Assembly: GCA_024698715.1 (NCBI GenBank)
Contig: JAILRA010000006.1
Span: 1-64,000, forward strand
Direction of reading: 5' to 3'
DNA: 64,000 nt
Origin: Lachnospiraceae bacterium
GTDB lineage: Bacteria; Bacillota; Clostridia; Lachnospirales; Lachnospiraceae
Within the stretch, counting starts at the first letter, position 1. Each line of letters opens with the position of its first letter. Both the position numbers and the translations under genes were made by a program. The notes beneath the pieces are model-generated. The model ran no database searches, was not told where the DNA came from, and was given only the letters and a program-made list of their open reading frames with translations. This document shows positions 38,029 through 61,328 of this stretch, in pieces.

Positions 38029-38411
38029 ATGAACGCTAAACAAAAACATCATCAATCCAATCTTGCCCTTTGGACTTCTCGTTTCAAAGAGCAAAAGGAA
38101 AGCGGATTGTCTATCAGATCCTGGTGTCTCGAAAACAACATCTCTATGTATGCTTTTAATTACTGGAAGCATCTAGCCAAAGAAGAGTATGTCGATTCAC
38201 TCCTTCTGGACATTGTTCCTCTCGCTTCTCCCAATACTCAGGTTTCCGTTCAAAATACCATTACATCTCTGCAAACTCTATATAGCGAATTGCGCGATTC
38301 GCACAATTCACACTCTATACTATCTCTATAGATGACATTCATATAGAAATAGGTCAAAACGCTTCTGATGAGATGCTCTTTTCCGTCATTAAGGCTGTGC
38401 GTCATGCTTAG
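38029..38411 (+). pseudogene. tnpA: IS66-family accessory gene tnpA, disrupted
   Basis: Starts with AAGGAGG before ATG 38029. ALWTSRFKEQKESGLSIRSW followed by CLENNISMYAFNYW is the IS66 TnpA helix-turn-helix region. The frame goes wrong after a palindromic insert (38288-38308). The true C-terminus (DDIHIEIGQNASDEMLFSVI followed by KAVRHA) continues in another frame to TAG 38409-38411. Normally TnpA, TnpB and TnpC are all needed for transposition. Confidence 0.8.
38288..38308. repeat. GC-rich palindrome, copy 2, inside tnpA
   Basis: AATTGCGCGATTCGCACAATT, one base different from copy 1 in the core. It lies exactly at the point where the tnpA frame is lost, so it probably arose by insertion or local duplication of the segment around copy 1. 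Confidence 0.75.
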
Positions 38412-38763
38412 AGACGCGGACCCTAAATCATTTGCCGCTATCTATGTTGTTTGCGGTTATACCAACATGCATTACGGCATTGACACTCTCGCCGCAATCA
38501 TAGAAAGCAAATATCATCTTCCTTTATTCAAACCAAACACTTTATTCCTTTTCTGTGGCAAGCGAGCCAGCAAGATAAAAGGACTTGTTTGGGAAGGTGA
38601 TGGTTTTCTGCTTCTTACCAAGCGTATTGAAGAAGTTTATTTCGTTTGGCCTTGAAATAGAAACGAAGCCAAGTCTCTTTCTCCCACTTAATTCGAATGG
38701 CTTATGAAAGGATTCCCGATTGTCCCTAAGATTAGGATGTCCAATCCGGAGAAATCCGCTTGA
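38404..38763 (+). pseudogene. tnpB: IS66-family gene tnpB, degenerate
   Basis: ATG 38404 overlaps the tnpA end by 8 nt as in intact IS66 elements. IYVVCGYTNMHYGIDTLAAI, NTLFLFCGKRASKIKGLVWE and GDGFLLLTKR are the TnpB signatures. Two premature stops (38653-38655, 38689-38691) interrupt the C-terminus, which continues in frame to 38763. The transposase gene tnpC is absent. Confidence 0.85.
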
Positions 38764-39024: not shown

Positions 39025-39894
39025 TCACAAACCCTTAGCAACCTCTAGTAAGTACTGTCCATAATTGGTCTTCATCAAAGGCTCTGCTAATTTTAACAAT
39101 TGATCTTTGTTGATAAATCCTCTCTTATATGCAATCTCTTCGATACAAGAAATATACAATCCCTGTCTCTTCTGGAAAGCTGCCACGAAATCAGAAGCAT
39201 CCAAAAGTGCATCATGATTACCGGTATCCAACCATGCGAAACCTCTTCCCAAAGTCTCTACCCGAAGAGTTCCTCTGTTTAAATATTCATTATTGATACT
39301 TGTGATCTCAATCTCACCACGTGCACTGGGTTTTACATTCTTAGCAATCTCTACTACATCGTTATCATAGAAATACAAACCGGGCACTGCGTAATTGCAC
39401 TTAGGTTTCTCAGGTTTCTCTTCGATGGAAAGTGCTTTGCCATTCTCATCAAATTCAACCACACCATATTCTCTGGGATCACGAACATAGTATCCGAATA
39501 TAGTCGCTCCGCTTTCTCTGGACGCAACCTCTATAAGAATTTTGGAGAAACTCTGTCCATAAAAGATATTATCTCCCAATACCAAAGCAACTCTGTCTTT
39601 ACCAATGAACTTTTCACCAATGATAAATGCATCTGCCAATCCTCTGGGTGTCTCTTGAACAGCGTACTCAATCTCCATCCCCAGCTGGCTTCCGTTTCCT
39701 AAAAGTTCTTTAAATACCGGAAGGTCTCTGGGAGTAGAAATGATCAAAATCTCTCTGATCCCAGCCAACATCAATGTGGAAAGAGGATAGTAGATCATGG
39801 GCTTGTCATACACCGGCATAATCTGCTTGGAAATTGCCTTTGTCAATGGATACAATCTAGTTCCTGAACCTCCTGCTAAAATAATACCTTTCAT
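39025..39894 (-). CDS. rmlA: Glucose-1-phosphate thymidylyltransferase
   Basis: Makes dTDP-glucose, first step toward dTDP-rhamnose and related deoxysugars. 289 aa, typical. Seen: [41 protein letters not shown], and [20 protein letters not shown]. The other genes of the pathway (rmlB, rmlC, rmlD) are not in this window, so the product must be used by enzymes elsewhere. It is 60 nt downstream of the GT61-SLH gene on the same strand. GAGGTAAGG precedes ATG 39894. Confidence 0.95.
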
Positions 39895-39954: not shown

Positions 39955-41661
39955 TTATTTTGATGATATAATTTTATTCATCATTATACAAATGACTTTC
40001 ACCATTTGAGTATAATTCATTATCCCCTGAGGATTTAAACTTTTTATACCTCTAGAACAACTCCCTATAATGATTCCATTGGTCACAGCCCATTTCATAG
40101 GTTTCATGGCATAATCTGACACTTTGCCTTTATCAGAGTAATCTGTTAATACATTTTCTTCAATAAATGTCAAATAATTATGTTTCATTGAATATCTGTA
40201 CAAAAATGTAATACATTTTTCTTTCGTAAAAGCATTATTAGGTTGGAAAAAATCTGTATGCCCTGCGACTCCGTTCTCATACGCCCAGACTATAGCCTTA
40301 GCATGTTCATATTTCTGAGGCACATCCTTATATACAGATTTATAATTAACATTGGGCCTTCCTTCCAAAGAATATAATGCCTCCATCAATTCTGCTCGAG
40401 TAACCTGATTATCACTTCCAGATTGTGTATTACTCAACTGCTTAACTGATTTCATTTTTTTGCGTTCCAATTCTATTCCCAATAATTCATAACTAAAATT
40501 ATTCAATACATCAAACATATCCATATCTTTAATCTTTTTCCATACTGCACCCCCAGCTGAATATACTTGAGTCCACTTAATTAAATATGGTAATAATTCT
40601 TTTTCAATGTCATATTCTACCATATCTAATACCCCTAAATCATTAACATATTCTTTCCATTCATCTGTAGATGTAATCAAGAATACTCCCCCTGCGTGCG
40701 TAGTAGGCAAAAAATTATTCGAAATATTAACCCATGTACAATCAATTTTTTTCATTTGATTTATCATGAATTGTGGAGTAAGAGCACCTGGTTCATTACA
40801 TCTAATTAAGATTGTAGCTTTTGTTTTTTCTTTTGCAAACAAAAGTAAATGAGAGAGTGTTCCTGCTGTGCAAGCTACATCAGTAGCATTTCTTATAGCC
40901 GCTATTTGATCTTTTAACAATAATTGTTCTGGATATAATATTTCATAACCAAGTTTCTTATAAAAATTCTCGAAATACATCTCACCAAAACAGTCCTTTT
41001 TTTCAAATCTTGTTCTGCTCAAATATATTTTTTTTGAGAAATGCTGAGTTGCTATCATATTACACGAAATTTTATCATAAAGCTTTGCTATTTTATCACT
41101 ATATCCATAATATAATAGCCATCCCTGATCTGGCACAATCACATTTGCATATCGTGTAATATTTTCACATACTTCCCACTGATTATCTTCTATTCCTAAA
41201 GATTTCATAACTAAATTAAATGTTTCTGGAATAGGTTTTTGAATATCCTTACAAAAAACTATTTTATACCTTTGGGGGTTTTCCGCAAGGAACCATAATC
41301 TCGTTAATGAGTCGGTAATGCAATGACCAAATGCCTTAATAATCTCTCCACCGAATATCACTGTTTCATCGGATTCGATTACCTCTTCTGGCAAAAAGTC
41401 ATACGCTTCTTTACACTCATATGCCATGACTCCATCGCCCTTTCTTCGTTCCGTTCCAGTTATGAACTTACCATTTGAATCAAGAACACCTCCAGCATAG
41501 ACATCTCTTGATACTCTCTCTCGAGTCAGTGGAATTCTCTTATATGGTAATATATAACCATTGCTGATCACTCTTATTTGACATTGTTCCAAACGCCTAT
41601 AATCAGATTCTATCCTTTTTTTCCAATCCTCTAAAGCATGATTTATGTATATTGTTTTCAT
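39955..41661 (-). CDS. GT61-type glycosyltransferase fused to C-terminal SLH repeats, no signal peptide
   Basis: 568 aa. Residues ~95-330 resemble the GT61/DUF563 catalytic region: FGGEIIKAFGHCITDSLTRL followed by WFLAE, KKIYLSRTRF, and the late CTAGTLSHLLLFAKEKT. Residues ~410-568 hold about three SLH repeats: VTRAELMEALYSLEGR, YKDVPQKYEHAKAIVWAYEN followed by GVAGHTDFF, and YAMKPMKWAVTNGI. The start MKTIYINHALEDWKKRIES is not a signal peptide, so a wall-binding module sits on what should be a cytoplasmic enzyme. Neighbours are a pyruvyl transferase (upstream) and rmlA (downstream). An SLH domain inside the cell could bind nascent pyruvylated polymer; this is inference. Confidence 0.82.
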   Translation of the reverse strand: MKTIYINHALEDWKKRIESDYRRLEQCQIRVISNGYILPYKRIPLTRERVSRDVYAGGVLDSNGKFITGTERRKGDGVMAYECKEAYDFLPEEVIESDETVIFGGEIIKAFGHCITDSLTRLWFLAENPQRYKIVFCKDIQKPIPETFNLVMKSLGIEDNQWEVCENITRYANVIVPDQGWLLYYGYSDKIAKLYDKISCNMIATQHFSKKIYLSRTRFEKKDCFGEMYFENFYKKLGYEILYPEQLLLKDQIAAIRNATDVACTAGTLSHLLLFAKEKTKATILIRCNEPGALTPQFMINQMKKIDCTWVNISNNFLPTTHAGGVFLITSTDEWKEYVNDLGVLDMVEYDIEKELLPYLIKWTQVYSAGGAVWKKIKDMDMFDVLNNFSYELLGIELERKKMKSVKQLSNTQSGSDNQVTRAELMEALYSLEGRPNVNYKSVYKDVPQKYEHAKAIVWAYENGVAGHTDFFQPNNAFTKEKCITFLYRYSMKHNYLTFIEENVLTDYSDKGKVSDYAMKPMKWAVTNGIIIGSCSRGIKSLNPQGIMNYTQMVKVICIMMNKIISSK

Positions 41662-41690
41662 TAAAGTTTCCTTTCAAATAAAAAAGTTTA

Positions 41691-41717
41691 TTATAATGTC
41701 TCACATTATAATAAAGC
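41691..41717. promoter_or_regulatory. Perfect AT-rich inverted repeat upstream of the GT61-SLH gene
   Basis: TTATTATAATG, loop TCTCA, CATTATAATAA: 11 perfect base pairs. On the minus strand it is followed by CTTTTTTATTT, so it could end transcription from the pyruvyl transferase gene. It also contains TATAAT on both strands, so it might be a promoter or operator instead. Confidence 0.5.
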
Positions 41718-41739
41718 GCTTACAATTCACCACGTTCCC

Positions 41740-42140
41740 GTAGATTTCGATTGTCTTAAAAACTCGTTTAAGAATTTTTGCTATATCTCTTAGTGGAGAA
41801 GCATATTTTTTAAGTTTCGACTACCAATATAAGTCCCAATTCCAAGCAGAAAGCCAAGAACATTCTCAAGATATGTTTCAATTATAGCAGTCAATTCATT
41901 TATCAATCTGTATACCACTCAGCAAACTATTTTTCGCACATCAGTACTATTGCATCTACTTTTTCTCTAGGATTATACGTAGTCAATTATATACTCACTC
42001 TATATCACAACCTTCAGTGAATAATTCCAATATTTGCATTGGTTGCAACAACTTGACTAATCAGAAAATCCTCCTCATCAAAAACATCATACGTTACAAA
42101 CCATTCCATCAAATACCAAATTTATGCCATTCAATCAGTA
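41740..42140 (-). pseudogene. Possible decayed coding remnant
   Basis: The ~400-nt gap has short protein-like minus-strand stretches in different frames, such as YDVFDEEDFLISQVVATNAN near 42080 and ELTAIIETYLENVLGFLLGI near 41860, separated by stops. No identity assigned. No intact gene is present. Confidence 0.3.
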
Positions 42141-42147
42141 AACACGT

Positions 42148-43557
42148 CTATCGAATTATCATCTGGTAATCCTCAACGAATTCATCTACAAGTTTTTTTA
42201 ACACGATCTGTTTTTTTTCTTCTTTCAAAAAATGATCCAGCTTTCCTTTTACTTCTGTTTGCGACTTTTCTAATTTTTCAACTTTTTTCTTTAGTTCGTT
42301 AATCCGATTGACACGTTCCTGATCTTTATTCTTTAAATATGCATAATACTCTGTCAATCGATTATTAACTGTTTCTCCATTTTCACAATTCAAGCTCCTA
42401 ACAGGCTTATGGAATTCAACATTCTGAGTTAAAAGATCATAATAACGATTTGGATCATCAACAGGTTCTAAACCATTTTTCCTTAGGAAATTCCTAAATC
42501 TATCATATCGGTCACTATGACCATCCAGAACCTGATTGAAATCTATAGTATTATATATATCATCAATTGAAGAATAATTTTCAAGCTCTTTCACACTGAT
42601 ATGTGGAATATTATGATACTCAGCCAATTCCAAAACTCTCGCATCCGTAGCAACCAAACACGCCGGAGTACCAGCCAAAACAGCTACAACATTTCCGTGA
42701 ATTCGTGTACCAAACGAAAAATCCACTTCATTTTTCATATAATTTATCCAAGTATAAGTGTTCAAGAAAAATTGTGAAATAATCTTATCGTTTTTTTCGA
42801 AAAAGCTATGAGATAAATTCAAAGGAAATACATTCTTTGTAGAATCTATAGGAACTCCATAACACATCATCATTAATTCATTTGTTTCCTGTGGAATATA
42901 TGTAATCCTCTCTGCATTCTTCATAAATATTTTATCTGCGAAGAATTTTTCTTTCACTTCATCGTTATCACTTTTCTTCGCATTCAATGCAATTCTCAAC
43001 GTTTCTGCAGAAAGTTTTTTAGGCGACGGAAGATTACGTCCAAAAGTATACATGGACGGACATCCTATTACTTCCACATTTTTAGAAAAGCCGAGACTTT
43101 TAAGATAATTGTAAGTACACTCGCCCCTAACTCCAACTATTGCGCTCTTATCCAACACTGCTCTCATAAATTCAACGACAGAATCATCGAACGGAAAAGA
43201 TACTTCTTTTCCTATGCCTATAATCCCATGCTGCAACCCAACGCCCGATACTATGCAAGGAATCCTCAACTTCTTCACAAGTTCTGTAAGGACCTTCAAC
43301 GCTCCCATAAATGATGTTCTAAACGCATTCGCTAACGGAATCAAAAAAACATCATAGTTTTCATTAATGTAATCCGCATCTGACACTTTTATATCATAAT
43401 AAGGATCAATGCTAACCTCTTCAGAAGCAAGATTTCTCCACATACTGGTCGGAAATAATAAATTACCCACATTATTCCATATTCTGTTATTAATACAGGT
43501 TTCATAGGGCAACAAATTATCTATTGGCCCTTGCGGTGCTCTCATCAATATTTTCAT
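42148..43557 (-). CDS. Polysaccharide pyruvyl transferase family protein
   Basis: 469 aa, PF04230 family, whose members add ketal pyruvate to sugars of wall polymers or exopolysaccharides using phosphoenolpyruvate. Seen: IPLANAFRTSFMGALKVL, PCIVSGVGLQHG, IVGVRGECTYNYLKSLGF, VIGCPSMY, and the family-typical DFSFGTRIHGNVVAVLAGTP with the conserved Arg-x-His. A C-terminal coiled coil (~430-469, RVNRINELKKKVEKLEK) follows. In Gram-positives CsaB-type pyruvylation creates the ligand for SLH domains; three SLH-bearing proteins are encoded in this window. It lies 52 nt downstream of a GT2-TagF gene, in the same orientation. Confidence 0.85.
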   Translation of the reverse strand: MKILMRAPQGPIDNLLPYETCINNRIWNNVGNLLFPTSMWRNLASEEVSIDPYYDIKVSDADYINENYDVFLIPLANAFRTSFMGALKVLTELVKKLRIPCIVSGVGLQHGIIGIGKEVSFPFDDSVVEFMRAVLDKSAIVGVRGECTYNYLKSLGFSKNVEVIGCPSMYTFGRNLPSPKKLSAETLRIALNAKKSDNDEVKEKFFADKIFMKNAERITYIPQETNELMMMCYGVPIDSTKNVFPLNLSHSFFEKNDKIISQFFLNTYTWINYMKNEVDFSFGTRIHGNVVAVLAGTPACLVATDARVLELAEYHNIPHISVKELENYSSIDDIYNTIDFNQVLDGHSDRYDRFRNFLRKNGLEPVDDPNRYYDLLTQNVEFHKPVRSLNCENGETVNNRLTEYYAYLKNKDQERVNRINELKKKVEKLEKSQTEVKGKLDHFLKEEKKQIVLKKLVDEFVEDYQMIIR

Positions 43558-46258: not shown

Positions 46259-48082
46259 CTAAAATTTATATTTGATCCAAGCGCCAAATGATTTAAAGAT
46301 TGTCTTCAATCCCAATTCACCGGAGGCATATTTACCAATTGTATAATTTGCTAATTCTTCACCAACCAGTTCTTGTTTAGATTCTGTCTGAATTTCAACA
46401 GATTGTTCTTGGCTTACATATGCCGTTGGTTGTTCTGGTTGCTGTTCAGATATTGTACCTGCTTTTACATAGTACCATCCAACTATATTTTTAGCATATC
46501 CTTCATATGCTGTATTGATTGTACCATTTTCTACATACCACCACTTATCACCATATTCTATCAACCCTTTAAATGAATAGTTTACGAAGCCATTTTCAAT
46601 ATAATACCATTTACCTTCACTCTGAATAAGTCCATTGGCAGAAGAATCAACTTCTCCTTTTTTATATACGATTAATGTATTGTTTGAAGAAATCAATCCG
46701 TTTTTAGAAGTATCAATTTTCCCGTTAACAGCAAATACTTCCCTGTTTCCTATCTTTTGATAACCATTTGCGTTTTTATTTATCGTTCCCTCTTCGATAA
46801 TCCACTCACCATATTTATTTGATGCTATACCGGAATATGTTCTGTCTAATACTCCCCTTCTGACATAAAACCATCCATATTCATTTTTGGCCAACCCATT
46901 GTACCACAAATCAACGGCACCGTTTTTATAGTAGTACCAAATAGCACCGATTCTTACTAAACCTTCCTGCTCGCCATTCAATATACTTTGTTGTTCAACA
47001 GAATTGCTAACTCCGTTAACTCCCAATGCCTTTTCTAATAAACTCTGAGATGATTTGATTGCTCCCAGTTTTTTTGAAATATAATCATAATTACCTTCAA
47101 TAGTTCTTGTTTCAGGATTGCTATCCTTAGTTTGTTCTATATAAAACAGAGCATTATGCAAATCATACTCTTTAATATACTTATACTGTTCCTTATACAT
47201 TCCGCAGCAATTAAGCAGAAGCTCCTGTAAATCTTGTTCTTCATCATATTTTCCCAGTAGACATCTCAATTTTTCATATGAATTAGTATTTTTGTACTCC
47301 TTAATCTCGTACCACCATTCAGCTACAACCTTTCTAGCAACCATGTATTGTATTGAAAAATATTTATGCAGATTTTCTTCTGTTATCCATACTAAGTCCT
47401 CAGATAAAACTGGACATTTCTCAACTTTCTTTCCCAAATCTTCAGAAAATAAAGCTGCTACTTCTTCATTCATTTTTTGAATATTCAGAGTTAATCTTTT
47501 CCACTCTGAAACTTCGATTGAAGCGAATCTTCCATCTATTTCATATTCTTCATCTGCCCCTTCGTAAACACAAGCTACATTAACATAAACTACATTATCA
47601 CATAATGAAACGTAATCACTCAAAAATCCTTCTTCAGCAAATACATTTTCCCTCTCGATTTGCACACTATGTTCCTTAATAATCTTTGTACTGAACACCT
47701 TATGATAAATAGACAAAAAATTCCCTCTATCACTCTCAAAACTATCTTCTATTTCCTTATAATAATTGAAATTGATATATGAATTAGGATTATTCATAAA
47801 TGTTTCATTCAAAGTTTGAAGTGCATTAGGTGCAAAAACAGATGATGGCGTACAAAACAGAACTGCATCCCCATGAACCAAATCAAGTGCAGCGTTTATG
47901 CTATCACAAACATTCTTCTCATTTATATATAATGTTCTAAATTCCAATTCCTTTACTGAATCGTACACCTTATCCGTCAACAAAATAACTTCAAAATTCT
48001 TGAATGATTGTCTTTTCAATGAGTTCATGCATCTAGTCAAATATGCATCATTCGTCGAACAAGTAACAATAACACTTATCAT
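46259..48082 (-). CDS. GT2-like protein lacking DxD, with C-terminal cell-wall-binding repeats and no signal peptide
   Basis: 607 aa. The N-terminal ~200 residues follow GT2 fold logic (MISVIVTCSTNDAYLTRCMN followed by SLKRQSF; ALDLVHGDAVLFCTPSSVFA), but TPSS stands where active enzymes have D-x-D, so catalysis is doubtful. The middle (~200-380) is helical. Residues ~385-565 hold about eight ~22-aa repeats of cell-wall/choline-binding type: WYYYKNGAVDLWYNGLAKN, WFYVRRGVLDRTYSGIASNK, WWYVENGTINTAYEGYAKN. A Gln/Glu-rich linker and an aromatic basic tail (GLKTIFKSFGAWIKYKF) end the chain. No signal peptide is visible. AGGAGA precedes ATG 48082. Confidence 0.8.
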   Translation of the reverse strand: MISVIVTCSTNDAYLTRCMNSLKRQSFKNFEVILLTDKVYDSVKELEFRTLYINEKNVCDSINAALDLVHGDAVLFCTPSSVFAPNALQTLNETFMNNPNSYINFNYYKEIEDSFESDRGNFLSIYHKVFSTKIIKEHSVQIERENVFAEEGFLSDYVSLCDNVVYVNVACVYEGADEEYEIDGRFASIEVSEWKRLTLNIQKMNEEVAALFSEDLGKKVEKCPVLSEDLVWITEENLHKYFSIQYMVARKVVAEWWYEIKEYKNTNSYEKLRCLLGKYDEEQDLQELLLNCCGMYKEQYKYIKEYDLHNALFYIEQTKDSNPETRTIEGNYDYISKKLGAIKSSQSLLEKALGVNGVSNSVEQQSILNGEQEGLVRIGAIWYYYKNGAVDLWYNGLAKNEYGWFYVRRGVLDRTYSGIASNKYGEWIIEEGTINKNANGYQKIGNREVFAVNGKIDTSKNGLISSNNTLIVYKKGEVDSSANGLIQSEGKWYYIENGFVNYSFKGLIEYGDKWWYVENGTINTAYEGYAKNIVGWYYVKAGTISEQQPEQPTAYVSQEQSVEIQTESKQELVGEELANYTIGKYASGELGLKTIFKSFGAWIKYKF

Positions 48083-50304: not shown

Positions 50305-53300
50305 TTATATAATTTTTGCAATTCTGTCAAATACTCTTGAACAGTTATTTTGATCGTTATATGCAAAGAAATTGTCGATCCTGTTTCTGTATTTTTCTTT
50401 CAGCTCGCATCCGGATTGTATGTATTCAATGATCAGATCAACTATGTCTTCAAGCTCGTACACAACTTCTCCGAAACCGTCTTCTTCATATTCAAAATAG
50501 CCTTTATCGTATGTGTGCTCTCCGGAGAAGAACTGTTCCCTGTCAAACTGCACATACAAAACAGGTTTTCTCAAATAAGCAAAATCCATTGCCGTTGAAG
50601 AATAATCTGTAACAAGCAGATCCGCTTCTGCGAACGCTTCTCTGTATTTTTTCTCAAGTCCCAGATTTTCAACGCGTTCATCATTACATATCTTATCCAT
50701 GCAGTCTCTGAAATTCGTATGAGGCATAAAACATAACGTATATCCGAACTGTTCACATGCATCCAGAAGTCTTTCATTATTGAGAAGATCATGATAGAAA
50801 ATACCAAACTCTGTTTTTTCAATATCATCCCTGGCCTTTGTCGCATACTTATCCGATTTTGCGGCATTATAATCTTTCATGAGCCATTTTCTCCAGGTCG
50901 GCATTATCATTATTTTTTTCTTTTCGTCATGATAAAGTCTGTCATATCTGGGAAGTCCCGTCAGCCAGACATTTTTTTCATCATAATAGTATTTATAATT
51001 AAGTATTGACGCTGCTTCTTTTGGGGCGGAACAGATAAACCCTTCTATATTCTTGTTGTATCTGTTAAGCCACCTGCTAAGATCATCTTTTATAACTCCG
51101 TGTTGCAGGAATACAAACTTATGATCCGCATACATATCTTTAAATACATGCCCGGATATTCCTTTTCGCCATAAAGGATCTATTATGTATTCATCCGCCT
51201 GAGAAGAAATAATGACATCTGCGATCATATGAAGTATCAGGTGTTCGTCCGAATCCTGATCAAGTACGTTTCCCGTCTCCGTAAGACGTTCAAAATCGGG
51301 CGAATCCTTATCAATTACAAAATATACTTCCACATCCGGATTATCAAGTTTTGACAGATACCTGAAAAAAGCTTCACCGTTATCGTCAGCAACACTGTAT
51401 CTGTCCGAAACAAGCCATATCTTCTTGTTCTTTTTTAGATACCAGTTTTTTCTTGCCAGAGCCGCTCTTCTTATGTCCAGCGCCCTGATTATTTCTTTCT
51501 GCTTTCCTACGGCACTTTTTGAAACCTGCTCTTCAAAATCCTTTTCAAAATCCATGTATTCCTTCATCTGAACGACATTCCAGATATGAAGAGCATTTTT
51601 CTGAAGTCTGACCACCCAGTCCTCACACGAATAAAATGACCACGAAAACTGCCTTGTAATAGGCATAAACTTTCCTAACAGGATCTTTTTCCTTTCAAAC
51701 TCCATTCCTTCCGTTGAAGAATAAAAAGTAAGTGTTTCTTCCTCAGTGACTTTATCCAGCGGGATCTCCAGAATGAATGACCTGGTAAACAAAGCGATAT
51801 CACCCAGTACCTTAATGCTTTCATCCCTGTTTTTGGTCTCTTCCGATACATCATCCTTTAAATAGTATCTTTCGTCATTCAGACTTACCCATGTACTGAT
51901 ATCATCTTCAAGATCACTGCAGATTCCGCGAATGCTCAGAACTCCGTTTTCTATGTGCATAAATTCAAGTTTAATACTGCATTCCCCTGCATCTGCAACA
52001 TAATGACCGTCAAAGCTGTATTCGACATCATTTTTCTCTTCGTCATATTCTTTTTCAATCAGACCTGAATTTCTTAGTTTTGCTGCATAAAACAACTGCT
52101 CGGTCTTTAAACATCTCTGTGACAGGATAACTTCAATATCAATCTTTTTAAGAATTTCTTTTATGAGTCGGCAATATTCTTCAAAACCTTCTCTGCCGAT
52201 CACCTCATCCGCCTTTTCACCGTCTCCGTCCGAAAGAAGCCTCCACTGAAGTTGTCCCATAACCGTATACTGTATATACTTCGGAACATATCCGAACTTT
52301 TTTTCGGAACCCTCGATCAGATATTCAAGCATATCTTTAACATAAGGTATATAATATTTTTCCGTATTCTTACTCTGCTGAATTGCCGACAGAGAACCGA
52401 CACTTCTTCGTCTGTACCAGTATTTGCAGTCCGAAACGAGACCAACTGCAGGAATATCATCCATCATCACATCATTGACGAACTTTATATCTTCCCCATT
52501 GATCAGTTCGGGATCAAACTCAAATCGCTCCTTTATTTTTTCGGTTTTAAAAAAAGTTGCTGCGGTAAAGTACTGTGGTTTGTCCCACTCGTCAAGCATG
52601 TTAAGTATTCTGGTTCCGTTTTCAAACCGATATGACGTCCAGTGTTCATCTTTTTGAGCATCAAAAAACTGCAGAGGATACGTAACTACGGAAATTTTAT
52701 CCTCGTTTTCTTCAAAAAAGGTAAAACATTTTTCAAATACATTTTCAGATAGTTTGTCATCGGAATCCGGAAATGTAATATATTTTCCCGTAGCTATTTT
52801 TATTCCTGCATTTCGTGCCAAAGAAACGCCTTCGTTTTCTTTATGAAGAACCTTTATCCATGGGTATTTTGCAGCATACCTGTCGCATATTTCTTCCGAG
52901 CCGTCATCGGAACCGTCATCGATCAGGATCAATTCATATATATTGTCAAAAACATAATTATGATACACCGCTTCGGGATTCCTGCGAAGATATTTGGCCA
53001 GAATATCCTGTTTCTGAGAAAGGACACTCTCGATCATTTCCACAAGAAAATCCGCTGTGTTGTAAACAGCCACAACAACCGAGATCATATAGTTATATGA
53101 TCTCTGATAGTCGGGAAGCTCCCCGAATTTATATCTGTATCCTTTTATTTGTCTCGGAACGGCTGTAAGAAAACGGGCTATTTTGTAAGTCCTTGAATTA
53201 CGCGTTTCTGTCAATTCAAACAAAAACTTATCACGTTCCATGAGAAGTTTCTGTCTCTCTATTTCCGTTTCGGAAAGTTTTCGTTTGATTTTTTCCAATT

Positions 53301-53319
53301 CCTTTTGATCGTTTCGCAT
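50305..53319 (-). CDS. GT2 glycosyltransferase fused to TagF-like glycerophosphotransferase (subtype B) with N-terminal coiled coil
   Basis: 1004 aa. Residues 1-~45 are a charged coiled coil (KIKRKLSETEIERQKLLMER) followed by an amphipathic NSRTYKIARFLTAVPRQIKG stretch, common in glycan-locus GT2 proteins. GT2: YMISVVVAVYNTADFLVEMI, LIDDGSDDGSEE, YITFPDSDDKLS. C-terminal glycerophosphotransferase: KFVFLQHGVIKDDLSRWLNR, IMIMPTWRKWLM, FMPHTNF, LLVTDYSSTAMDFAYLRKPV. ATG 53319 is chosen for GGGTGA just upstream. It follows the 1207-aa paralogue by ~40 nt. Confidence 0.9.
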   Translation of the reverse strand: MRNDQKELEKIKRKLSETEIERQKLLMERDKFLFELTETRNSRTYKIARFLTAVPRQIKGYRYKFGELPDYQRSYNYMISVVVAVYNTADFLVEMIESVLSQKQDILAKYLRRNPEAVYHNYVFDNIYELILIDDGSDDGSEEICDRYAAKYPWIKVLHKENEGVSLARNAGIKIATGKYITFPDSDDKLSENVFEKCFTFFEENEDKISVVTYPLQFFDAQKDEHWTSYRFENGTRILNMLDEWDKPQYFTAATFFKTEKIKERFEFDPELINGEDIKFVNDVMMDDIPAVGLVSDCKYWYRRRSVGSLSAIQQSKNTEKYYIPYVKDMLEYLIEGSEKKFGYVPKYIQYTVMGQLQWRLLSDGDGEKADEVIGREGFEEYCRLIKEILKKIDIEVILSQRCLKTEQLFYAAKLRNSGLIEKEYDEEKNDVEYSFDGHYVADAGECSIKLEFMHIENGVLSIRGICSDLEDDISTWVSLNDERYYLKDDVSEETKNRDESIKVLGDIALFTRSFILEIPLDKVTEEETLTFYSSTEGMEFERKKILLGKFMPITRQFSWSFYSCEDWVVRLQKNALHIWNVVQMKEYMDFEKDFEEQVSKSAVGKQKEIIRALDIRRAALARKNWYLKKNKKIWLVSDRYSVADDNGEAFFRYLSKLDNPDVEVYFVIDKDSPDFERLTETGNVLDQDSDEHLILHMIADVIISSQADEYIIDPLWRKGISGHVFKDMYADHKFVFLQHGVIKDDLSRWLNRYNKNIEGFICSAPKEAASILNYKYYYDEKNVWLTGLPRYDRLYHDEKKKIMIMPTWRKWLMKDYNAAKSDKYATKARDDIEKTEFGIFYHDLLNNERLLDACEQFGYTLCFMPHTNFRDCMDKICNDERVENLGLEKKYREAFAEADLLVTDYSSTAMDFAYLRKPVLYVQFDREQFFSGEHTYDKGYFEYEEDGFGEVVYELEDIVDLIIEYIQSGCELKEKYRNRIDNFFAYNDQNNCSRVFDRIAKII

Positions 53320-53358
53320 TATTTCACCCATGCACTATAGTACCCAAACTCTGAATTA

Positions 53359-56300
53359 TTATCTGTCAAGTCCTTTTATCTTTTCGTATACTCTCTGACA
53401 GTTGTTCTTATCATGGAATTTAAAGAATCTGTCCATTCTTTCGGAGTAAGGTTCGTGAACTTTGCATCCGTTTTTCATATATTCGATAATAAGGTTTATC
53501 AAACTTTCCAGATCATATGTCACTTCACCGAAACCGTCTTTTTCATAATCAAAATATCCCGGAACATATACATGACCGTCAAAAAATTCATCCTTATCAA
53601 ACTGACAGTAAACCACCGGTTTATGAAGCAGCGCAAACTCCATTGCGGAAGATGAGTAATCGGTCATAACCAGACTGGCTTCCGCAAAAACATCTTTGTA
53701 TTCAACATCGAAATCAAAGAATTCCACGCGCTTATCATGCTTAAAACCATGAAGTCCGTGTAATTTTATGGAAGGATGCGGCATAAAGCAGATCTGATAA
53801 TCATATTTTGCCGCTTCCGAAAGAAGTTTTTCGTCAGTTATCAGAGCATTATAGAATCTGTAATATGCACTGTTCTCATATCCTTTAACAAGCATGTTTT
53901 CCGGACCGGCCATGCGCATAAGACTCCTTCTCCATGTTGGCATGATAACTATTTTTCGTTTCTCGTTATCATATAATCTGTCATGTCTCGGCAAACCGGT
54001 GAGCCATACATTCTCAGGTTTGTAGAAGTATTCGCAATCCAGTATTGACTGTGCTTCTCTTTCGGCTGTACAGACAAAACCTGCCATATTCTTACTATAT
54101 CTGTTCAGCCACTCTGACAGATCGTCTTTTATGATCCCGTGCTGAAGGAATACAAATTTCTTTCTCGCAAGAAGATCACATATAGTGTCCGTTTTCTTTT
54201 TATCACGATACCACGGATTAATGACAAACTCATCTCCCGCACTGGAGATCACGTAATCGGCAACCAGTTGTAAAAGATAATGCTGTTGCGAATTTCTGGC
54301 TACCGTTTTACCGATCTTCTTCATACGTTCAAAATCATCGGAATTACCGTCAATCACAAAATAAGCATCCACATCCGGATCCTTTTTTTCCGTTACAAAT
54401 CTGAATAAGGCTTCACCGTTATCTCCCGCAACATTTACCCGATCCGATATTAACCATATTTTCCTTTTATTGTCATTATACGCCAGATAACCAATTGCCA
54501 TCTGTCTTAATTCAATCATTTCCGAGAGTTCATTACCTCCCTTGGAGTTGAGGATCTCATTTTCAAATTCTCTTTCATAATTGATACCGGCAGACAATCC
54601 CACGGTTCTTCTTATGACGATTTCCCTGTCTTCAATTCTTGATGCCCATCCGTCCTTTTTATAATATGACTTTTTGTAAGTCTGAGTTATGGGCATGTTT
54701 TTTTTGCATCTTAGATCACGCTTCTGGACTTTTATTTCCTTTTCTTCGATTTCACCGAAAAAAGAAATCCTGTACTCTTCAATATCTCTGTCAAGCTTAA
54801 CCGTAATAAGAAATGTCTTGGCAAAGAAACAGATGTCATCCATGGAATACTTGTTTATATCCCTGTCAACCGTTGTATATTCGCATTTTTCTCCGTTAAC
54901 ATATATTGCAAGTCCGACATCCGAACAAAAATCCATACCATATCCTTCCAGTTTCAGGACCTCATCTTCTATTTCCATAAATTCGAATGCAATATAACTT
55001 CTCCCTATGGATGTACCTATACCCGTATTGCCGAAAAAATAGAACGCATCATCGCCTTCCCGGACTATTTCTGCCTGTTTCCCATATTTTTGGGCCAGCA
55101 TATAGTATTTATTTTCATCCCAGATCTTCTTCTGGTAAAGTATTACGTCGTCTTCAACATATTTTAATAATTCAATCGCCTTTTTCTTAAAAGCGGCAAA
55201 CCCGTCTTCTCCGAGAACTTTTTTTGCCTGCTCTCCCTTGTCGTTTGGTGAAAATCTCCACTGAAGCTGTCCCATCACATTATACTGGACATAAAGCGGA
55301 GGCATTCCATTCTCGTTGAGATTATCAAGAATGGTCTTTTCAAGAATATTTTCAAGGAAAAACAGGTAAGTCCCTGGCTTGGTTCTGCTCAACTGTATGG
55401 CAGATTGTTCGCCTGCGATCCTCTTCCTGTACATATATTTTGTTGTGCCGATAAGACCCAGTTTGGTCCCTTTCCTGAAAATGCTGCCGTATATATAATA
55501 TAAGTCTTCCCCGATCTCTATATTCTCATCAAACAGAATACTTTTGTCCGTTCTGAATGTCGATCCCGAGACGAATACGGTTACAGCCCTCGGATTTTCG
55601 ATCAGATCCACAACTTCCCTTTTCTTGGAAAACTTATTGTTTGTCCAGTGTTCTCCCGTATAAGCCTCAAAAAAATGTACCGGAACCGTTGTCATTACAA
55701 TCTCGGGGTTATTCTCAAAAAACTCTGTAGATTCGGCCATATGATTATTTAAAAGAACATCGTCGGAGTCAACATACAAAGTGTATTTTCCGCTTGATCT
55801 TCCTATGGCAAGATTTCTGGCGGACGAAACACCGCCGTTTGCTTTATGAAACACTTTAATTCTGTCATCAAATCCGGCATATTCATCCAGAATCCGAGAA
55901 GAACCGTCCGTTGACCCGTCATCAACAAGAATGAATTCAAAACACTTCAAAAAACATCTTCTTCCGTAATCATCGGAATCATTTCCTATTATGAACTTTT
56001 CGAGTTTTTGTGTATCCTGTTCCAACACGCTGTTTATCATTTCCGCAAGATAATACTGCGTGTTATATACCGCCGTAATGACAGAAACCATACAGTCATA
56101 AATCCTGTCACAGATCTGAAGTGAGAATGAATTGTCGGATTCGCATACGGGCGTTACTTCAAAGGAGACATCATTAATATCAATATGAATTATCTCAGGT
56201 TTTATTAAATCGTTTTTACAAACAACCGTACAATCTTCTTCATTTATCCGTACGATAAATTTATATGCATCGTTTTTATCAAAACAAAAATTCTTCAGAT

Positions 56301-56982
56301 CCCACTCGACTTTACATATTCTTCTTAAGCCGTTATCTGTTTTTTCAGTCAGGGATATTCCGGAATTTTTTATTTTTTCTCCTGAAGTCAAAGATACAAT
56401 ATTTACTTTTATATCACCGCATATCATCGGCAAATCAATATACGCGGCAAAAATACGATCAATAAACTCATATCCTGCAAGATGAGCACAGAACATATCT
56501 TTTTCAAAAAGTTCAAGCTGTCTGAATCTGGCAGACAATAAGCCTCCCTCCGTCCAAAATGCACAGAAAACCGATCTGTCATTTTCATCAATTATCAAAG
56601 GTCCGATCTGACGATAGGAAGAGTCCGTTCCTTCCGCTTTGGCGACTTTATTTCGGATAAAACACGACTTATTTCCGTCGGGAGTTTCCCATGCGACGGC
56701 AATTCTCGCCGACTGTTGATTGAGATGTTTCATCTGGAAAAGAACTGTATCATCAAAATTTACGGTAATACATCCGTTCTCAGGTTCAATCTTACGAACA
56801 TCTAATGCTTCTTCTTTGTCATATAGCCATAAAAACAAAGCCGCATCGCAATTCTCTTTCAACGAAATATTACCGTTGGTATTAATGGAAAGTCTGTTTC
56901 CGTCCATCCAGACCTGAGCATCAATTACGTCATTCGGTTTCAATTTTCCATCATATATTGTTTTGGTTAACTGCTCTATCAT
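53359..56982 (-). CDS. GT2 glycosyltransferase fused to TagF-like glycerophosphotransferase (subtype B) with extra N-terminal beta domain
   Basis: 1207 aa. The N-terminal ~290 residues are beta-rich and unlike the paralogues, with no signal peptide. GT2 domain from about residue 295: MVSVITAVYNTQYYLAEMIN, LVDDGSTDGSSR, TLYVDSDDVLLNN. Middle beta region. C-terminal transferase: KFVFLQHGIIKDDLSEWLNR, IVIMPTWRRSLMR, FMPHPSIK, LVMTDYSSSAMEFALLHKPV. It overlaps the upstream TagB/F-like gene by 32 nt, with AAGGA before ATG 56982, showing co-translation. Likely builds a repeating glycosyl-glycerophosphate unit together with its neighbours. Confidence 0.9.
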   Translation of the reverse strand: MIEQLTKTIYDGKLKPNDVIDAQVWMDGNRLSINTNGNISLKENCDAALFLWLYDKEEALDVRKIEPENGCITVNFDDTVLFQMKHLNQQSARIAVAWETPDGNKSCFIRNKVAKAEGTDSSYRQIGPLIIDENDRSVFCAFWTEGGLLSARFRQLELFEKDMFCAHLAGYEFIDRIFAAYIDLPMICGDIKVNIVSLTSGEKIKNSGISLTEKTDNGLRRICKVEWDLKNFCFDKNDAYKFIVRINEEDCTVVCKNDLIKPEIIHIDINDVSFEVTPVCESDNSFSLQICDRIYDCMVSVITAVYNTQYYLAEMINSVLEQDTQKLEKFIIGNDSDDYGRRCFLKCFEFILVDDGSTDGSSRILDEYAGFDDRIKVFHKANGGVSSARNLAIGRSSGKYTLYVDSDDVLLNNHMAESTEFFENNPEIVMTTVPVHFFEAYTGEHWTNNKFSKKREVVDLIENPRAVTVFVSGSTFRTDKSILFDENIEIGEDLYYIYGSIFRKGTKLGLIGTTKYMYRKRIAGEQSAIQLSRTKPGTYLFFLENILEKTILDNLNENGMPPLYVQYNVMGQLQWRFSPNDKGEQAKKVLGEDGFAAFKKKAIELLKYVEDDVILYQKKIWDENKYYMLAQKYGKQAEIVREGDDAFYFFGNTGIGTSIGRSYIAFEFMEIEDEVLKLEGYGMDFCSDVGLAIYVNGEKCEYTTVDRDINKYSMDDICFFAKTFLITVKLDRDIEEYRISFFGEIEEKEIKVQKRDLRCKKNMPITQTYKKSYYKKDGWASRIEDREIVIRRTVGLSAGINYEREFENEILNSKGGNELSEMIELRQMAIGYLAYNDNKRKIWLISDRVNVAGDNGEALFRFVTEKKDPDVDAYFVIDGNSDDFERMKKIGKTVARNSQQHYLLQLVADYVISSAGDEFVINPWYRDKKKTDTICDLLARKKFVFLQHGIIKDDLSEWLNRYSKNMAGFVCTAEREAQSILDCEYFYKPENVWLTGLPRHDRLYDNEKRKIVIMPTWRRSLMRMAGPENMLVKGYENSAYYRFYNALITDEKLLSEAAKYDYQICFMPHPSIKLHGLHGFKHDKRVEFFDFDVEYKDVFAEASLVMTDYSSSAMEFALLHKPVVYCQFDKDEFFDGHVYVPGYFDYEKDGFGEVTYDLESLINLIIEYMKNGCKVHEPYSERMDRFFKFHDKNNCQRVYEKIKGLDR

Positions 56983-58819
56983 TTTGTAATTCCTTTATCT
57001 TTTCATACACTCTTTTGCAATAATCCCCTTCAAACAGCCACAGTTTTTCAATCCTGTCGCGATATGACTGTTTCAGTTCAAAATCATTTTTTAAATAATC
57101 GTTCAATAATACAAGAAGATCTTTTTCCTTCAGACAGACTTCGCCCAATCCGTCACGGGTATAATCGAAATAGCCCTTTTTATACGTGTGTTCTTTATAA
57201 AAAGATTCCTTGTCAAAATGATAATATATGACAGGTTTTCTTAAATATGCGAAGTCAAATGCAACACTGCTGTAATCCGTAACAAGTAATGCACCCTGTG
57301 CAAATGCGTCCCTGTAGGTTTTGGTATAATTCCATATCTCAACCCCATCACGTTTTAATTCATCGAAATACCCTTTCATCAAAGGATGAGCCATAAAGCA
57401 AATCTTAAAGCCAAGTTTTCTGCATTTTCTTAATAATTGCCTGTTCGTCAGAAGACTCTTGTATTTCTTATAAAAATCACTCTTCTTAAAATCTTTCTTC
57501 ATAACCCATCTCATGGTATGGTGTTTTTCATCCCATACCTGTTCCATCAGACTTTTTCGCCAGCTGGGCATTATAAGAATAATCTTTTTTCTGTCATCAT
57601 AAAGTCTGTCATACCGTGGAAGTCCGGTAAACCATACTTCTTTTTCGGTATAATGATACGGATAATCCAATACGGACTTGTACTCATCTTTTGTACTGGT
57701 AACAAAACCGGTAAAATTGGTATTAAACCTTTCCAGAGTCGGGCTCATGTCATCCTTGATAACACCGTGCTGAAGAAAGATTATCTTCGGTCTGTGATAC
57801 AGATCCCTGAAGAATTCCGCATCATCCCAAAACGGATTCTCCACAACTCCGTTACACTGCGAAGAAATGATATAATCCGCAACAAGCGATAGCTTATAGT
57901 GTTCTTTCGAATATAATGGAATCACCTTGCCTATTTTACTCAGTTCGTTAAAATCTCTGGAATCTTCCGAAATCAGAAAAAAACAGTCCGCTTCATTTAA
58001 AGCTGATGCATACTCAAACAGTGTTCCGGCCGAATCATCCGCCATATCCGGTCGATCCATGAAAAGCCAGATCGGTCTTGACTTTCTATTTATTTTGTCA
58101 TAATAGAAATCCCTTAATTCATTAACCCATTCGGATCTGTCGGGAAAAGAATTTTTTATTTCCTCCCTGAATTTTTTTTCTTTAGTAATTATATATTCTT
58201 CATCTGCTTTTTTACATACTATATGATTTTCTTCGATAAAAAAAATCCATCCGTCTTTAGCAAAAAACTGTTCTTTGATGCAATCTGCGATCGGAGAAAA
58301 TCTCATTGAATTTATTCGACCGTATTCCGCTTCCAGTCCATTCACTTCATTGGAAAAATGTATTACGGTATTCTCAGAAAGCATGATATTAATTTTGAAT
58401 GCGGTTCTTTTTTCATATACAACGTCTTCATACGAAAGGTCGAAACCGGCTTCATACATTTCAACCGAAAGCAGATGTCCGCTTTCATATGCCTTAAATG
58501 TAAAATCACCCAGCACGGAAGGGAATGAAGTGTGGCCTTCAATAGTAAGACAACCCTTATTAAATTCAAAAAAGTGAATATAAACGGCAAGATATGACAG
58601 ATTGGCTGCATTGCATTCGCCAACCCTTATCATAATATCGTTCTCTATGGGTATCAATATCGGATCTGTCTCATATTTTAAAGACAAAAAGTATATTACG
58701 AGTGGCATTTCAGCCATGCCGATCTTATCTATTATTTCATCATCCGATAATGATTTCAGATATTCCGTTTTGGCCGGTATTTCCGTGTCATCCTGTGTTT
58801 TTCTGTTTGATCCGCTCAT
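56951..58819 (-). CDS. Stand-alone TagB/TagF-like glycerophosphotransferase (subtype B)
   Basis: 622 aa with no GT2 domain. The N-terminal ~230 residues are a beta-rich region similar to the middle part of the fusion proteins. C-terminal CDP-glycerol glycerophosphotransferase domain: PKIIFLQHGVIKDDMSPTLE, ILIMPSWRKSLMEQ, CFMAHPLMK, LLVTDYSSVAFDFAYLRKPV. Without a glycosyltransferase half it may act as a primase (TagB-like) or polymerase using the glycosylated acceptor made by others. ATG 58819 is chosen over an in-frame TTG at 58840; the start is 10 nt after the stop of the preceding gene, implying coupling. Confidence 0.85.
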   Translation of the reverse strand: MSGSNRKTQDDTEIPAKTEYLKSLSDDEIIDKIGMAEMPLVIYFLSLKYETDPILIPIENDIMIRVGECNAANLSYLAVYIHFFEFNKGCLTIEGHTSFPSVLGDFTFKAYESGHLLSVEMYEAGFDLSYEDVVYEKRTAFKINIMLSENTVIHFSNEVNGLEAEYGRINSMRFSPIADCIKEQFFAKDGWIFFIEENHIVCKKADEEYIITKEKKFREEIKNSFPDRSEWVNELRDFYYDKINRKSRPIWLFMDRPDMADDSAGTLFEYASALNEADCFFLISEDSRDFNELSKIGKVIPLYSKEHYKLSLVADYIISSQCNGVVENPFWDDAEFFRDLYHRPKIIFLQHGVIKDDMSPTLERFNTNFTGFVTSTKDEYKSVLDYPYHYTEKEVWFTGLPRYDRLYDDRKKIILIMPSWRKSLMEQVWDEKHHTMRWVMKKDFKKSDFYKKYKSLLTNRQLLRKCRKLGFKICFMAHPLMKGYFDELKRDGVEIWNYTKTYRDAFAQGALLVTDYSSVAFDFAYLRKPVIYYHFDKESFYKEHTYKKGYFDYTRDGLGEVCLKEKDLLVLLNDYLKNDFELKQSYRDRIEKLWLFEGDYCKRVYEKIKELQNDRAVNQNNI

Positions 58820-58829
58820 TCTACACTTT

Positions 58830-61328
58830 TCACTCTTCAATATATCCTGTTATTTTTTCAAGAAATATATTTTTATCCACAAGATCCGAATTGCCGTCTT
58901 CCAAAATTGTCTCTGTTTCGGAGACAATTCCTTTCGTATCGTATTTTACATTTCTCCAGTATGATTCATCGGTTAAATTTCTGTACCCGTTCATTCCGGA
59001 CTTAAATTCATCCGAATCCGGAAGGAAATAAAGAACCGGAATGTCAGCATAAAGAAAATCGTACATGTATGATGAAAAATCAGTAATGAATATCCTGTAT
59101 TCTCCTGTATCCACAGTACTGTCAACCAGTCTTACCCTGTCTGAGAGATTTTGGAAATATCTTTCGTAACATTTGAAGATCGGATGAAGTTTTACATCCA
59201 TTACCATATCATGCTTTTCCAGAAGATCCTCAAATTTTTTATCCGTCAGGAACTCTGTTAAACCCCTGAAATACGACGATGAAATGAATTTTCTGTCCAT
59301 AGGTTCCCATTTCCTGTCGATATATCTTCCCATCAGATACGATCTCCAGGATGGTGCAAAAAGTATTCTTTTCGCATTGGGCTTCTTCACTGGCTTGACT
59401 GCAAAACGCGGCATCCCAGTCTTTAGCAGATTTTCATCTTCATATCCGTATCGTTTTAATATTTTTTCTTCATTTAACGTTGAAATGACTATTTTGTCAG
59501 CAGGCAGTCTTTCAACCGAATACTTCCATGGCATATCTATATGTAGTACACCATGCTGAAGATAAATCACTTCGAATTTAAACTGTCCTGAATATAAATC
59601 ATATTCCGATTCTTCGAACGGAATGATATTCTTTTCTTCTATGAATGCGGTCAGAATTTTCCGGCATTTAAGAAACATCTCCTTATGTTTCTTACTTCCC
59701 CATACAATACCTGCCGTCGTCTTCGGAAGATGTTTTTTCTGACTGTCATCGGATATTATGTAATAACGCTTTATTCCGTCCTGCTTTGAATGATCATGCA
59801 GAAACTGAAGCATTCCGTTATCTTTTTCAACACCGGCACAGTCATAATAAAGCCAGATTTCTTCACTGATCGATTCATCTTTTATTTCAAAATGGATCGT
59901 ATTTTCAGGATCGATACCGATCTTCACATTGTTCATTTCATAATCGTATCTTTTAAGATCATGAGAAAAAGGAACGCACGGCATAAAATAGAAATGAGTC
60001 GGGAACCACCTGTTTTCAATCTTCATTTCAAATCTTACATTACGGACTTCTTCGGGATCGCACTCATATTTAAATGCAAAGAATCTTTGTGTGTCTTCAT
60101 GGGAAAGATAATAGTTATGTGTACTGGGAGAAAGCGGAAGTGTTCTGTTCATGTTTCCGTCATTTTCCACTGCCAGTAACATGGGTTTTTCCGGATAAAT
60201 CTGGAAGAAAACAGACTTAAGGAATCCGAATATATTAACTTTTCCGTCTGACACTTTGCATTTGGTCATTACGATCTCTATTGAATTCTCAAAGACCGTA
60301 CATTTTTCCTTATCAAAAAGCCCGAATCCGTACCCGTTAACCTGCCATGTCATTTTGTGATCATGTTTCATCCGAAGCATATAATACTTCTCAAAAAAAT
60401 CAATATTGGGATGATTCAGTATTATTTCGTTATCACATCTGTCAAGCAGTTTTCTCAGTCTTTCAACCGCCGATTCATATTTCTCTTTGGAATAATGATA
60501 CGGAAACAGCATATTGCAGCAAAGCTTCCAGTAAAAATCATTAACAAAGAGCCCCTGAAAAGCAGCCGGTACTCTTTCGTCATATCGTTCGAAGATCTGC
60601 TCGAACATATCCGTACACTGCTCGAATACAAAACATGCACCCGACATTCTTCCCGATGCAGAATTATCGCTTCTGTGATAAATATAGCAGCCTTCCGAAC
60701 AGAATCCCATTTTCAATTTATCATTAAGTACTTCGCAACAGTATTTCTGATCTTCTGAAAAAGTCTGATCTTCATCAAAGAGAATATTGTTCTCGAAACG
60801 GTTTCGAACAACAATATTCATGGTTGTCTGACCGATATAAGGATATTCCCTTAAATCATATACACCGGATTCTTTCAAATACATATATCTGAAATGCGGT
60901 TTTAATTCCCTGCCGTCATAGATTGTGTCAATTCTGTAGGTCACCAGATCCGTTTCGTCACATACGCTTTCAAAAAATTCTTTAACCGCCCACAATGTAC
61001 CGGGAGAAAGATCGTCATCCGCATCGAGATACAGAATATACTTTCCTCTGGCATTCCTGATCCCGGTGTTCCTTGCGGCGGATACCCCCTTATTCTCCTG
61101 ACTGAAAAAACGGACCTGCGAGTATTTATCCGAAAGTTTACTGCAAACTTTTTCGGATTCATCCTCAGATCCGTCATTAATAAGTATTATTTCAATATTC
61201 ATTTTGCGAAGGTTCTTTTCATGTTTCAGAAGATTCCCCACGCATTCTTTGATCCTGTCAGACTGATTGTATACAGGGATAATGATCGAAATATCCGTAT
61301 TCATTTTTCCGTTTTCTTTTCCGATCAT
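58830..61328 (-). CDS. GT2 glycosyltransferase fused to TagF-like glycerophosphotransferase (subtype A)
   Basis: 832 aa. GT2: ISIIIPVYNQSDRIKECVGN, LINDGSEDESEK, YILYLDADDDLS (D-x-D). C-terminal transferase: VIYLQHGVLHIDMPWKYSVE, RILFAPSWRSYLMG, DVKLHPIF, FITDFSSYMYDFLYADIPVL. It shares subtype A motifs with the 43610-46240 protein (LQHG-LH--PWKY and FAPSWR-YLMG) and is the best match to the pseudogene at 48.1 kb. GAGG lies 8 nt before ATG 61328. It is 33 nt downstream of the beta-helix SLH gene, so the surface protein and polymer genes may share a transcript. Confidence 0.9.
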   Translation of the reverse strand: MIGKENGKMNTDISIIIPVYNQSDRIKECVGNLLKHEKNLRKMNIEIILINDGSEDESEKVCSKLSDKYSQVRFFSQENKGVSAARNTGIRNARGKYILYLDADDDLSPGTLWAVKEFFESVCDETDLVTYRIDTIYDGRELKPHFRYMYLKESGVYDLREYPYIGQTTMNIVVRNRFENNILFDEDQTFSEDQKYCCEVLNDKLKMGFCSEGCYIYHRSDNSASGRMSGACFVFEQCTDMFEQIFERYDERVPAAFQGLFVNDFYWKLCCNMLFPYHYSKEKYESAVERLRKLLDRCDNEIILNHPNIDFFEKYYMLRMKHDHKMTWQVNGYGFGLFDKEKCTVFENSIEIVMTKCKVSDGKVNIFGFLKSVFFQIYPEKPMLLAVENDGNMNRTLPLSPSTHNYYLSHEDTQRFFAFKYECDPEEVRNVRFEMKIENRWFPTHFYFMPCVPFSHDLKRYDYEMNNVKIGIDPENTIHFEIKDESISEEIWLYYDCAGVEKDNGMLQFLHDHSKQDGIKRYYIISDDSQKKHLPKTTAGIVWGSKKHKEMFLKCRKILTAFIEEKNIIPFEESEYDLYSGQFKFEVIYLQHGVLHIDMPWKYSVERLPADKIVISTLNEEKILKRYGYEDENLLKTGMPRFAVKPVKKPNAKRILFAPSWRSYLMGRYIDRKWEPMDRKFISSSYFRGLTEFLTDKKFEDLLEKHDMVMDVKLHPIFKCYERYFQNLSDRVRLVDSTVDTGEYRIFITDFSSYMYDFLYADIPVLYFLPDSDEFKSGMNGYRNLTDESYWRNVKYDTKGIVSETETILEDGNSDLVDKNIFLEKITGYIEE

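Follow-up and report, generated by a model that had tools for sequence, protein, structure and literature searches.

The current work describes a gene in which a GT61 glycosyltransferase is joined, in one reading frame, to part of an SLH trimer. The window, that is, the whole stretch of DNA analysed, covers 64,000 nucleotides of a contig from a Lachnospiraceae bacterium. In our preferred reading, to which we give a probability of about 0.5, the product is a cytosolic GT61 enzyme of surface-glycan synthesis with a captured SLH tail; the tail has mostly lost its grip and would act as a folded accessory module, not as a wall-polymer lectin. SLH modules are regarded as outside anchors. An inside enzyme with such a tail, in which the grip is worn and the hydrophobic pattern is kept, amounts to a natural experiment on a ligand-less fold. 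An earlier note on this DNA is partly supported by the analysis: its observation is confirmed, but its interpretation is mostly not supported. The features concerned are listed below, with the sources of each assignment.

39955..41661, reverse strand: GT61-SLH fusion gene, 568 aa, ATG start, stop codon included
40552..41661, reverse strand: GT61 catalytic domain, about residues 1-370 (Pfam PF04577, alignment A4, AlphaFold, POMGNT2 fold)
40417..40551, reverse strand: helical linker, about residues 371-415 (BLASTP to L212, full-length model)
39958..40416, reverse strand: SLH module, about residues 416-568, comprising the second half of SLH1, SLH2 and SLH3 (Pfam, own-genome search, alignments)
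40396..40398, reverse strand: Arg422, SLH1 position 43, in the motif VTRAE, kept (alignment)
40258..40260, reverse strand: His468 at SLH2 position 29, where 23 of 23 other trimers have Gly (alignment)
40222..40224, reverse strand: Lys480 at SLH2 position 43, where 23 of 23 other trimers have Arg (alignment)
40063..40065, reverse strand: Gly533, SLH3 position 29, kept (alignment)
40012..40014, reverse strand: Tyr550 at SLH3 position 43, where 23 of 23 other trimers have Arg (alignment)
42148..43557, reverse strand: PF04230 polysaccharide pyruvyl transferase other than CsaB; its C-terminus is coiled-coil-like (Pfam, TIGR03609)
39025..39894, reverse strand: nucleotidyltransferase, the next gene downstream (PF00483, 257.6 bits), which we take to be RmlA-like
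46259..48082, reverse strand: GT2-like protein in which a choline-binding-type repeat of 22 residues occurs eight times (Pfam, sequence reading)

The fusion gene is a single uninterrupted frame. The fifth codon ahead of its ATG is an in-frame stop, and a purine-rich stretch, gaaaggaaac, plausibly a ribosome-binding stretch, lies immediately 5' of the ATG. Thus no upstream signal peptide has been overlooked, a candidate that the position of the stop rules out. The highest Kyte-Doolittle mean over 19 residues is 1.09, so that no membrane helix is expected in the protein, and none was found. Tested as an SLH-anchored secreted protein, the product shows neither a signal peptide nor any other export signal, as had been read from its start, and it is likely cytosolic. 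Lacking an export signal, its SLH module should be located at the inner side of the membrane, where the earlier note had placed it.

The assignment of the N-terminal part to the GT61 transferases, made at first from the sequence alone, was upheld by both profile and fold. Pfam Glyco_transf_61 (PF04577) matched residues 111-281 with 37.9 bits, above the cut-off of 27, and the best 16 PDB matches of the predicted structure (Foldseek) were all POMGNT2 (E 2.9e-08 to 4.9e-07), with TM-scores of 0.29-0.39 normalised by whole chains and identities of 9-12%. A PDB sequence search with the GT61 profile returned neither POMGNT2 nor any relevant match. In the full-length AlphaFold model, made with 13 GT61 rows, the pLDDT per ten residues is mostly 70-94 up to about residue 370, with three blocks at 52-66 in this part, and the model is unreliable beyond it. 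According to PMC13123520, GT61 enzymes have a catalytic His and two UDP-binding Arg, in an N-R-R constellation of which only R-R is present in Proteobacteria. His113, Arg121 and Arg216 are invariant in 13 of 13 GT61 rows of alignment A4, an agreement within the alignment and not a residue-by-residue mapping to POMGNT2.

Such genes are rare in this group. The fusion gene is the only GT61 match in its own genome; with this genome counted, matches were found in 9 of 397 family genomes and in 3 of 369 genomes drawn from the class, two of these three above the cut-off. G120, the single further genome of the genus that was searched, gave neither GT61 nor SLH matches. The 17 homologue loci include four duplicates (L075 at 100% identity; L084, L085 and L090 by eye) and three that are cut or broken (L080, L081, L089). 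Alignment A4 and the first Pfam scan cover 12 of the 17, and L083 and L091 were inspected by eye only; L213, which is below the cut-off, and the plasmid matches H2-H8 were left out. SLH was found in none of 18 distinct homologues, read in two overlapping Pfam scans of 12 and 10. So far, the fusion is a singleton among the homologues examined. Single-protein scans of genome contigs and viral contigs confirmed nothing, a PHROGs search gave no match, and by title and abstract opening no report of cytosolic glycosyltransferase-SLH fusions was found in the literature on these and on cell-wall-binding repeats.

Bacterial GT61 proteins of relatives (L048, L212, and WP_151625910 of the Pseudobutyrivibrio plasmid pNP95) have the catalytic domain in common with the fusion at 23-27% identity (A4), and several of their genes are near other glycan genes, but the proteins end without SLH. 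The highest-scoring homologue found, by searches that were not all scored alike, is L212 (116 bits), from another family of the class. It carries a coiled-coil-like tail at the place where the fusion has SLH; the tails of GT61 proteins thus seem exchangeable.

The comparison with L212 also defines the border of the tail. GT61 homology reaches residue 390 (BLASTP, 26% identity), and the two local scores were equalled in 1 of 500 shuffles and in 4 of 1000. The SLH module must therefore start later, with the first helix of SLH1 missing, and the linker up to residue 390, which aligns with the GT61 side of L212, is not that helix. The full-length model places helices at residues 352-378, 382-394 and 398-411, with low confidence from 372. 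MAFFT suggested that residues 380-405 are a remnant of the first helix of SLH1, which was rejected: the GT61 homology to L212 spans through 390, and the likeness of these residues to the SLH1 starts of 23 other trimers is not convincing, its best score being reached by 5 of 100 shuffles.

Pfam PF00395 recognises one repeat in the tail, at residues 508-533, with a narrow pass (21.3 bits, cut-off 20.8). With residues 408-568 as the query, 23 other SLH places were found in the same genome, the best at E 4.8e-26 and 35% identity, which rules out a likeness by chance. A ligand-binding SLH trimer has three repeats; here the first half of SLH1 is absent and about 2.5 repeats are left. The SLH fusion as originally described thus stands in its SLH homology and its single frame, and falls short of a full trimer. 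Among the 24 SLH modules compared, the tail diverges most from the rest, with a median identity of 0.29 against medians of 0.38-0.52 for the others, and yet 37 of 39 hydrophobic columns are kept at about 30% identity to the other trimers, which suggests that the SLH fold is retained. AlphaFold gave a mean pLDDT of 38 for the SLH part alone (three rows) and values nearly all below 50 for it in the full-length model; a PDB sequence search with the tail gave no match. The GT61 homology up to residue 390, the SLH homology from about 416 and the missing first helix of SLH1 show that the C-terminus of a GT61 protein was extended by part of an SLH trimer, namely its last two and a half repeats.

The grip of the tail was judged from its ligand positions. 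In the solved SLH trimers of PMC6081394, a groove takes its Gly29 from SLHn, its Trp13 from SLHn+1 and its Arg43 from SLHn+2, all three being required, and Lys replaces Arg in one groove of Sap. The tail shares homology and the hydrophobic pattern with the SLH trimers of secreted proteins, namely SpaA and Sap (PMC6081394) and the 23 own-genome places found with residues 408-568, all of which were aligned with it. Unlike these, the fusion has no export signal, lacks half a repeat and keeps only 2 of the 6 Gly29/Arg43 positions, which are invariant in the 23 own-genome trimers (138 of 138). Complete grooves (Gly29, Trp/Tyr13, Arg43) number three in 15 of the 23 trimers and two in the other 8, in which the alignment has Gly at one Trp13 position with Tyr adjoining; in the fusion tail, none of the three is complete, and the half of SLH1 bearing Trp13 and Gly29 is absent. 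Groove 2 is nearest to complete, with Arg422, Tyr517 and, directly preceding His468, Gly467 beside the lost position, and some ligand binding may persist there. Groove 3 passes when Lys is allowed for Arg, only by counting Tyr391 as the Trp13 of SLH1, and by the comparison with L212 this residue lies on the border of the GT61 domain side.

The alignments show a hydrophobic pattern that is kept and ligand residues that have mostly been lost since the fusion; these are the residues that would have held pyruvylated wall polymer. With the wall-gripping parts mostly gone, the tail probably has a role other than anchoring. Among invariant columns after the first half of SLH1, 2 of 5 ligand columns are kept, compared with 13 of 24 others (Fisher p 0.65). 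Faster loss at ligand positions than at other invariant positions was not found in this comparison, and the data therefore fit general drift as well as a specific loss of binding.

This bears on the possibility that the tail is a neutral relic: a GT61 gene would have been joined by chance to the 3' portion of an SLH gene, and the tail would be drifting, tolerated by the cell but without a function. The broad loss at invariant positions, the truncated SLH1 and the lack of a second example among the homologues would all agree with it, as would possible signs of rearrangement, an insertion element remnant and 486 frameless bases upstream. These bases (41662-42147), directly 5' of the GT61 gene, are low in G+C, have no convincing frame, and are perhaps a decayed gene. 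However, the retention of 37 of 39 hydrophobic columns with no stop over about 150 residues, at only about 30% identity, is hardly to be expected from drift alone, and a tail without any role is considered possible but less likely.

In the preferred reading, that of a folded accessory module, the enzyme would work at the inner face of the membrane, transferring a sugar onto a lipid-linked precursor, and the tail would aid self-association or present the acceptor. This role is the most likely one by analogy with the FnIII domain of POMGNT2, where the acceptor is held between two protomers by the catalytic and C-terminal FnIII domains, as described in PMC13411425. POMGNT2, an animal GT61 enzyme (PDB 7E9J, 7E9K and 8KB7), shares with the fusion the GT61 catalytic fold and a C-terminal accessory domain, but has FnIII where the fusion has SLH and, unlike the bacterial protein, is an endoplasmic-reticulum enzyme acting on protein O-mannose.

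The earlier note proposed that the tail might dock, on the inner face of the membrane, to pyruvylated polymer that is nascent or still linked to lipid, and that the neighbouring pyruvyl transferase could make the ligand. The likely cytosolic location would suit such a dock, as would the retained Arg422 and Tyr517 of groove 2, and Gly533 together with Lys480 in groove 3, Lys standing for Arg in a groove of Sap as well (PMC6081394). Moreover, a pyruvyl transferase gene adjoins the fusion gene, and a neighbouring GT2-like protein has wall-module repeats too. The absence of any complete groove, with SLH1 lacking its Trp13/Gly29 half, speaks against it.

The type of the neighbouring pyruvyl transferase also speaks against it. 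The product of 42148-43557 belongs to PF04230 as CsaB does, but scores only 22.3 bits against the CsaB profile (TIGR03609, cut-off 213.1). Of 26 genomes searched, namely the present one and 25 family genomes (15 of the 40 others with SLH-tail matches and 10 without), none gave a CsaB match above the cut-off. The control genomes met expectation, in that CsaB above the cut-off was found in exactly the four that have SLH matches. Among the 15 SLH-bearing family genomes, 8 have a weaker pyruvyl transferase match no more than about 4 kb away from an SLH match, 3 have one elsewhere, and 4 have none.

The best TIGR03609 score of the present genome, 65.1 bits, belongs to a gene on contig C93 (C93:18182-19681; L036:1183-2682, forward strand) that adjoins two secreted SLH genes. 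It matches 8 of 8 pyruvyl transferases beside SLH genes in relatives (E 3e-23 to 3e-08), and similar genes are found at L122-L129. The product of 42148-43557 shows no clear similarity to those eight, with a best E of 0.009. Furthermore, of five SLH-less GT61 relatives searched, three (G388, G395, G109) have a pyruvyl transferase no farther than 10 kb from GT61, so that such a neighbourhood needs no SLH. For these reasons the docking of the tail on wall polymer appears improbable, and the ligand is not likely to come from the adjoining gene, whose product is taken to modify the glycan of its own gene region.

Although its members score far below the CsaB cut-off, the C93-type group is thus a candidate for making the SLH ligand in Lachnospiraceae, a family in which none of the 26 genomes searched gave a CsaB above that cut-off. 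Genomes without SLH can have members of the group too, as the pyruvyl transferase of G395, which has no SLH match, belongs to it.

An artefact of assembly or sequencing that merged two genes would be conceivable in a draft of 2.93 Mb in 108 contigs, 89% complete, in which a fusion so far seen once was found. Both halves of the gene are nevertheless alike in G+C (0.322 and 0.327), the frame is continuous, and the tail is not closely duplicated elsewhere in the genome; these features argue for a genuine fusion, as had been assumed, and make an artefact very unlikely.

Export was compared in 84 SLH frames, consisting of the best 60 places in other family genomes and 24 in the present genome. In total, 78 look exported, which agrees with the expectation that SLH is normally carried by secreted proteins: 73 passed a threshold (a hydrophobic stretch of set strength after one of the first 12 possible starts), including C58, in which the stretch is a membrane helix, and in five (L148, L163, L174, L177, L196) the signal peptide is evident by eye. 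Four of the remaining six are cut or broken. L139 is truncated by the end of its contig, L191 lacks a start codon, L033/L197 (C3:129256-129678 of the present genome) lies behind an in-frame stop within a repeat protein, and L159 has protein-like sequence ahead of its first start codon. The other two are the GT61 fusion and L165 (L123:4053-4883, reverse strand, in relative G237), a 277 aa protein with an ATG start, Big_2 and three SLH repeats, in which neither a signal peptide nor an enzyme domain was found. SLH without a signal is thus rare but not unique to the GT61 fusion; in none of the other five frames was a glycosyltransferase recognised. Nucleotide-sugar enzymes depend on cytosolic donors, and this general knowledge, the missing signal and membrane helix, and the eroded binding positions leave hardly any credit for a non-classical export in which the tail anchors the protein in the wall, even with most other SLH modules on exported-looking proteins.

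The domain, fold, absent export signal and neighbours of the GT61 gene show a surface-glycan context. The same window contains Bac_transf-family sugar transferases, large GT2/glycerophosphotransferase-like proteins and one LytR-CpsA-Psr protein. The GT2-like protein at 46259-48082 (reverse strand), about 4.6 kb upstream of the GT61 gene, has no evident export signal. Three of its eight repeats look degenerate by eye. A DxD-type motif is usual in GT2 proteins, and none was seen at the usual place (GDAVLFCTPSS). With the limit set at E 0.001, Choline_bind_4 was detected in this frame alone within the genome. No match of similar strength to its GT2 part turned up outside the present genome among 394 family genomes (best other E 5.8e-10), and its repeats gave no match against plasmids.

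What is most intriguing about this neighbourhood is the proximity of two enzymes, both apparently cytosolic, that are fused to wall modules, and the second fusion keeps a bolder reading alive. The SLH tail, through a remodelled groove (Arg422, Tyr517 and the Gly467-His468 loop), and the eight repeats of the GT2-like protein might bind the lipid-linked glycan while it grows, ordering or measuring it ahead of its export; this is a long shot. It would be an intracellular re-use of wall-binding modules in one gene region. The two fusions raise the testable question of whether biosynthetic enzymes of surface-glycan gene regions in gut Lachnospiraceae acquire wall-binding modules as accessory domains.

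Two further observations concern the surrounding DNA. At 50305-61328, four successive proteins of 629-1207 aa are CDP-glycerol glycerophosphotransferase-like, and three of them also have a GT2 domain. The insertion element remnant at 38029-38650 (forward strand), presumably of the IS66 type, lies 1.3 kb past the 3' end of the GT61-SLH gene and consists of a small accessory gene and a broken second gene.
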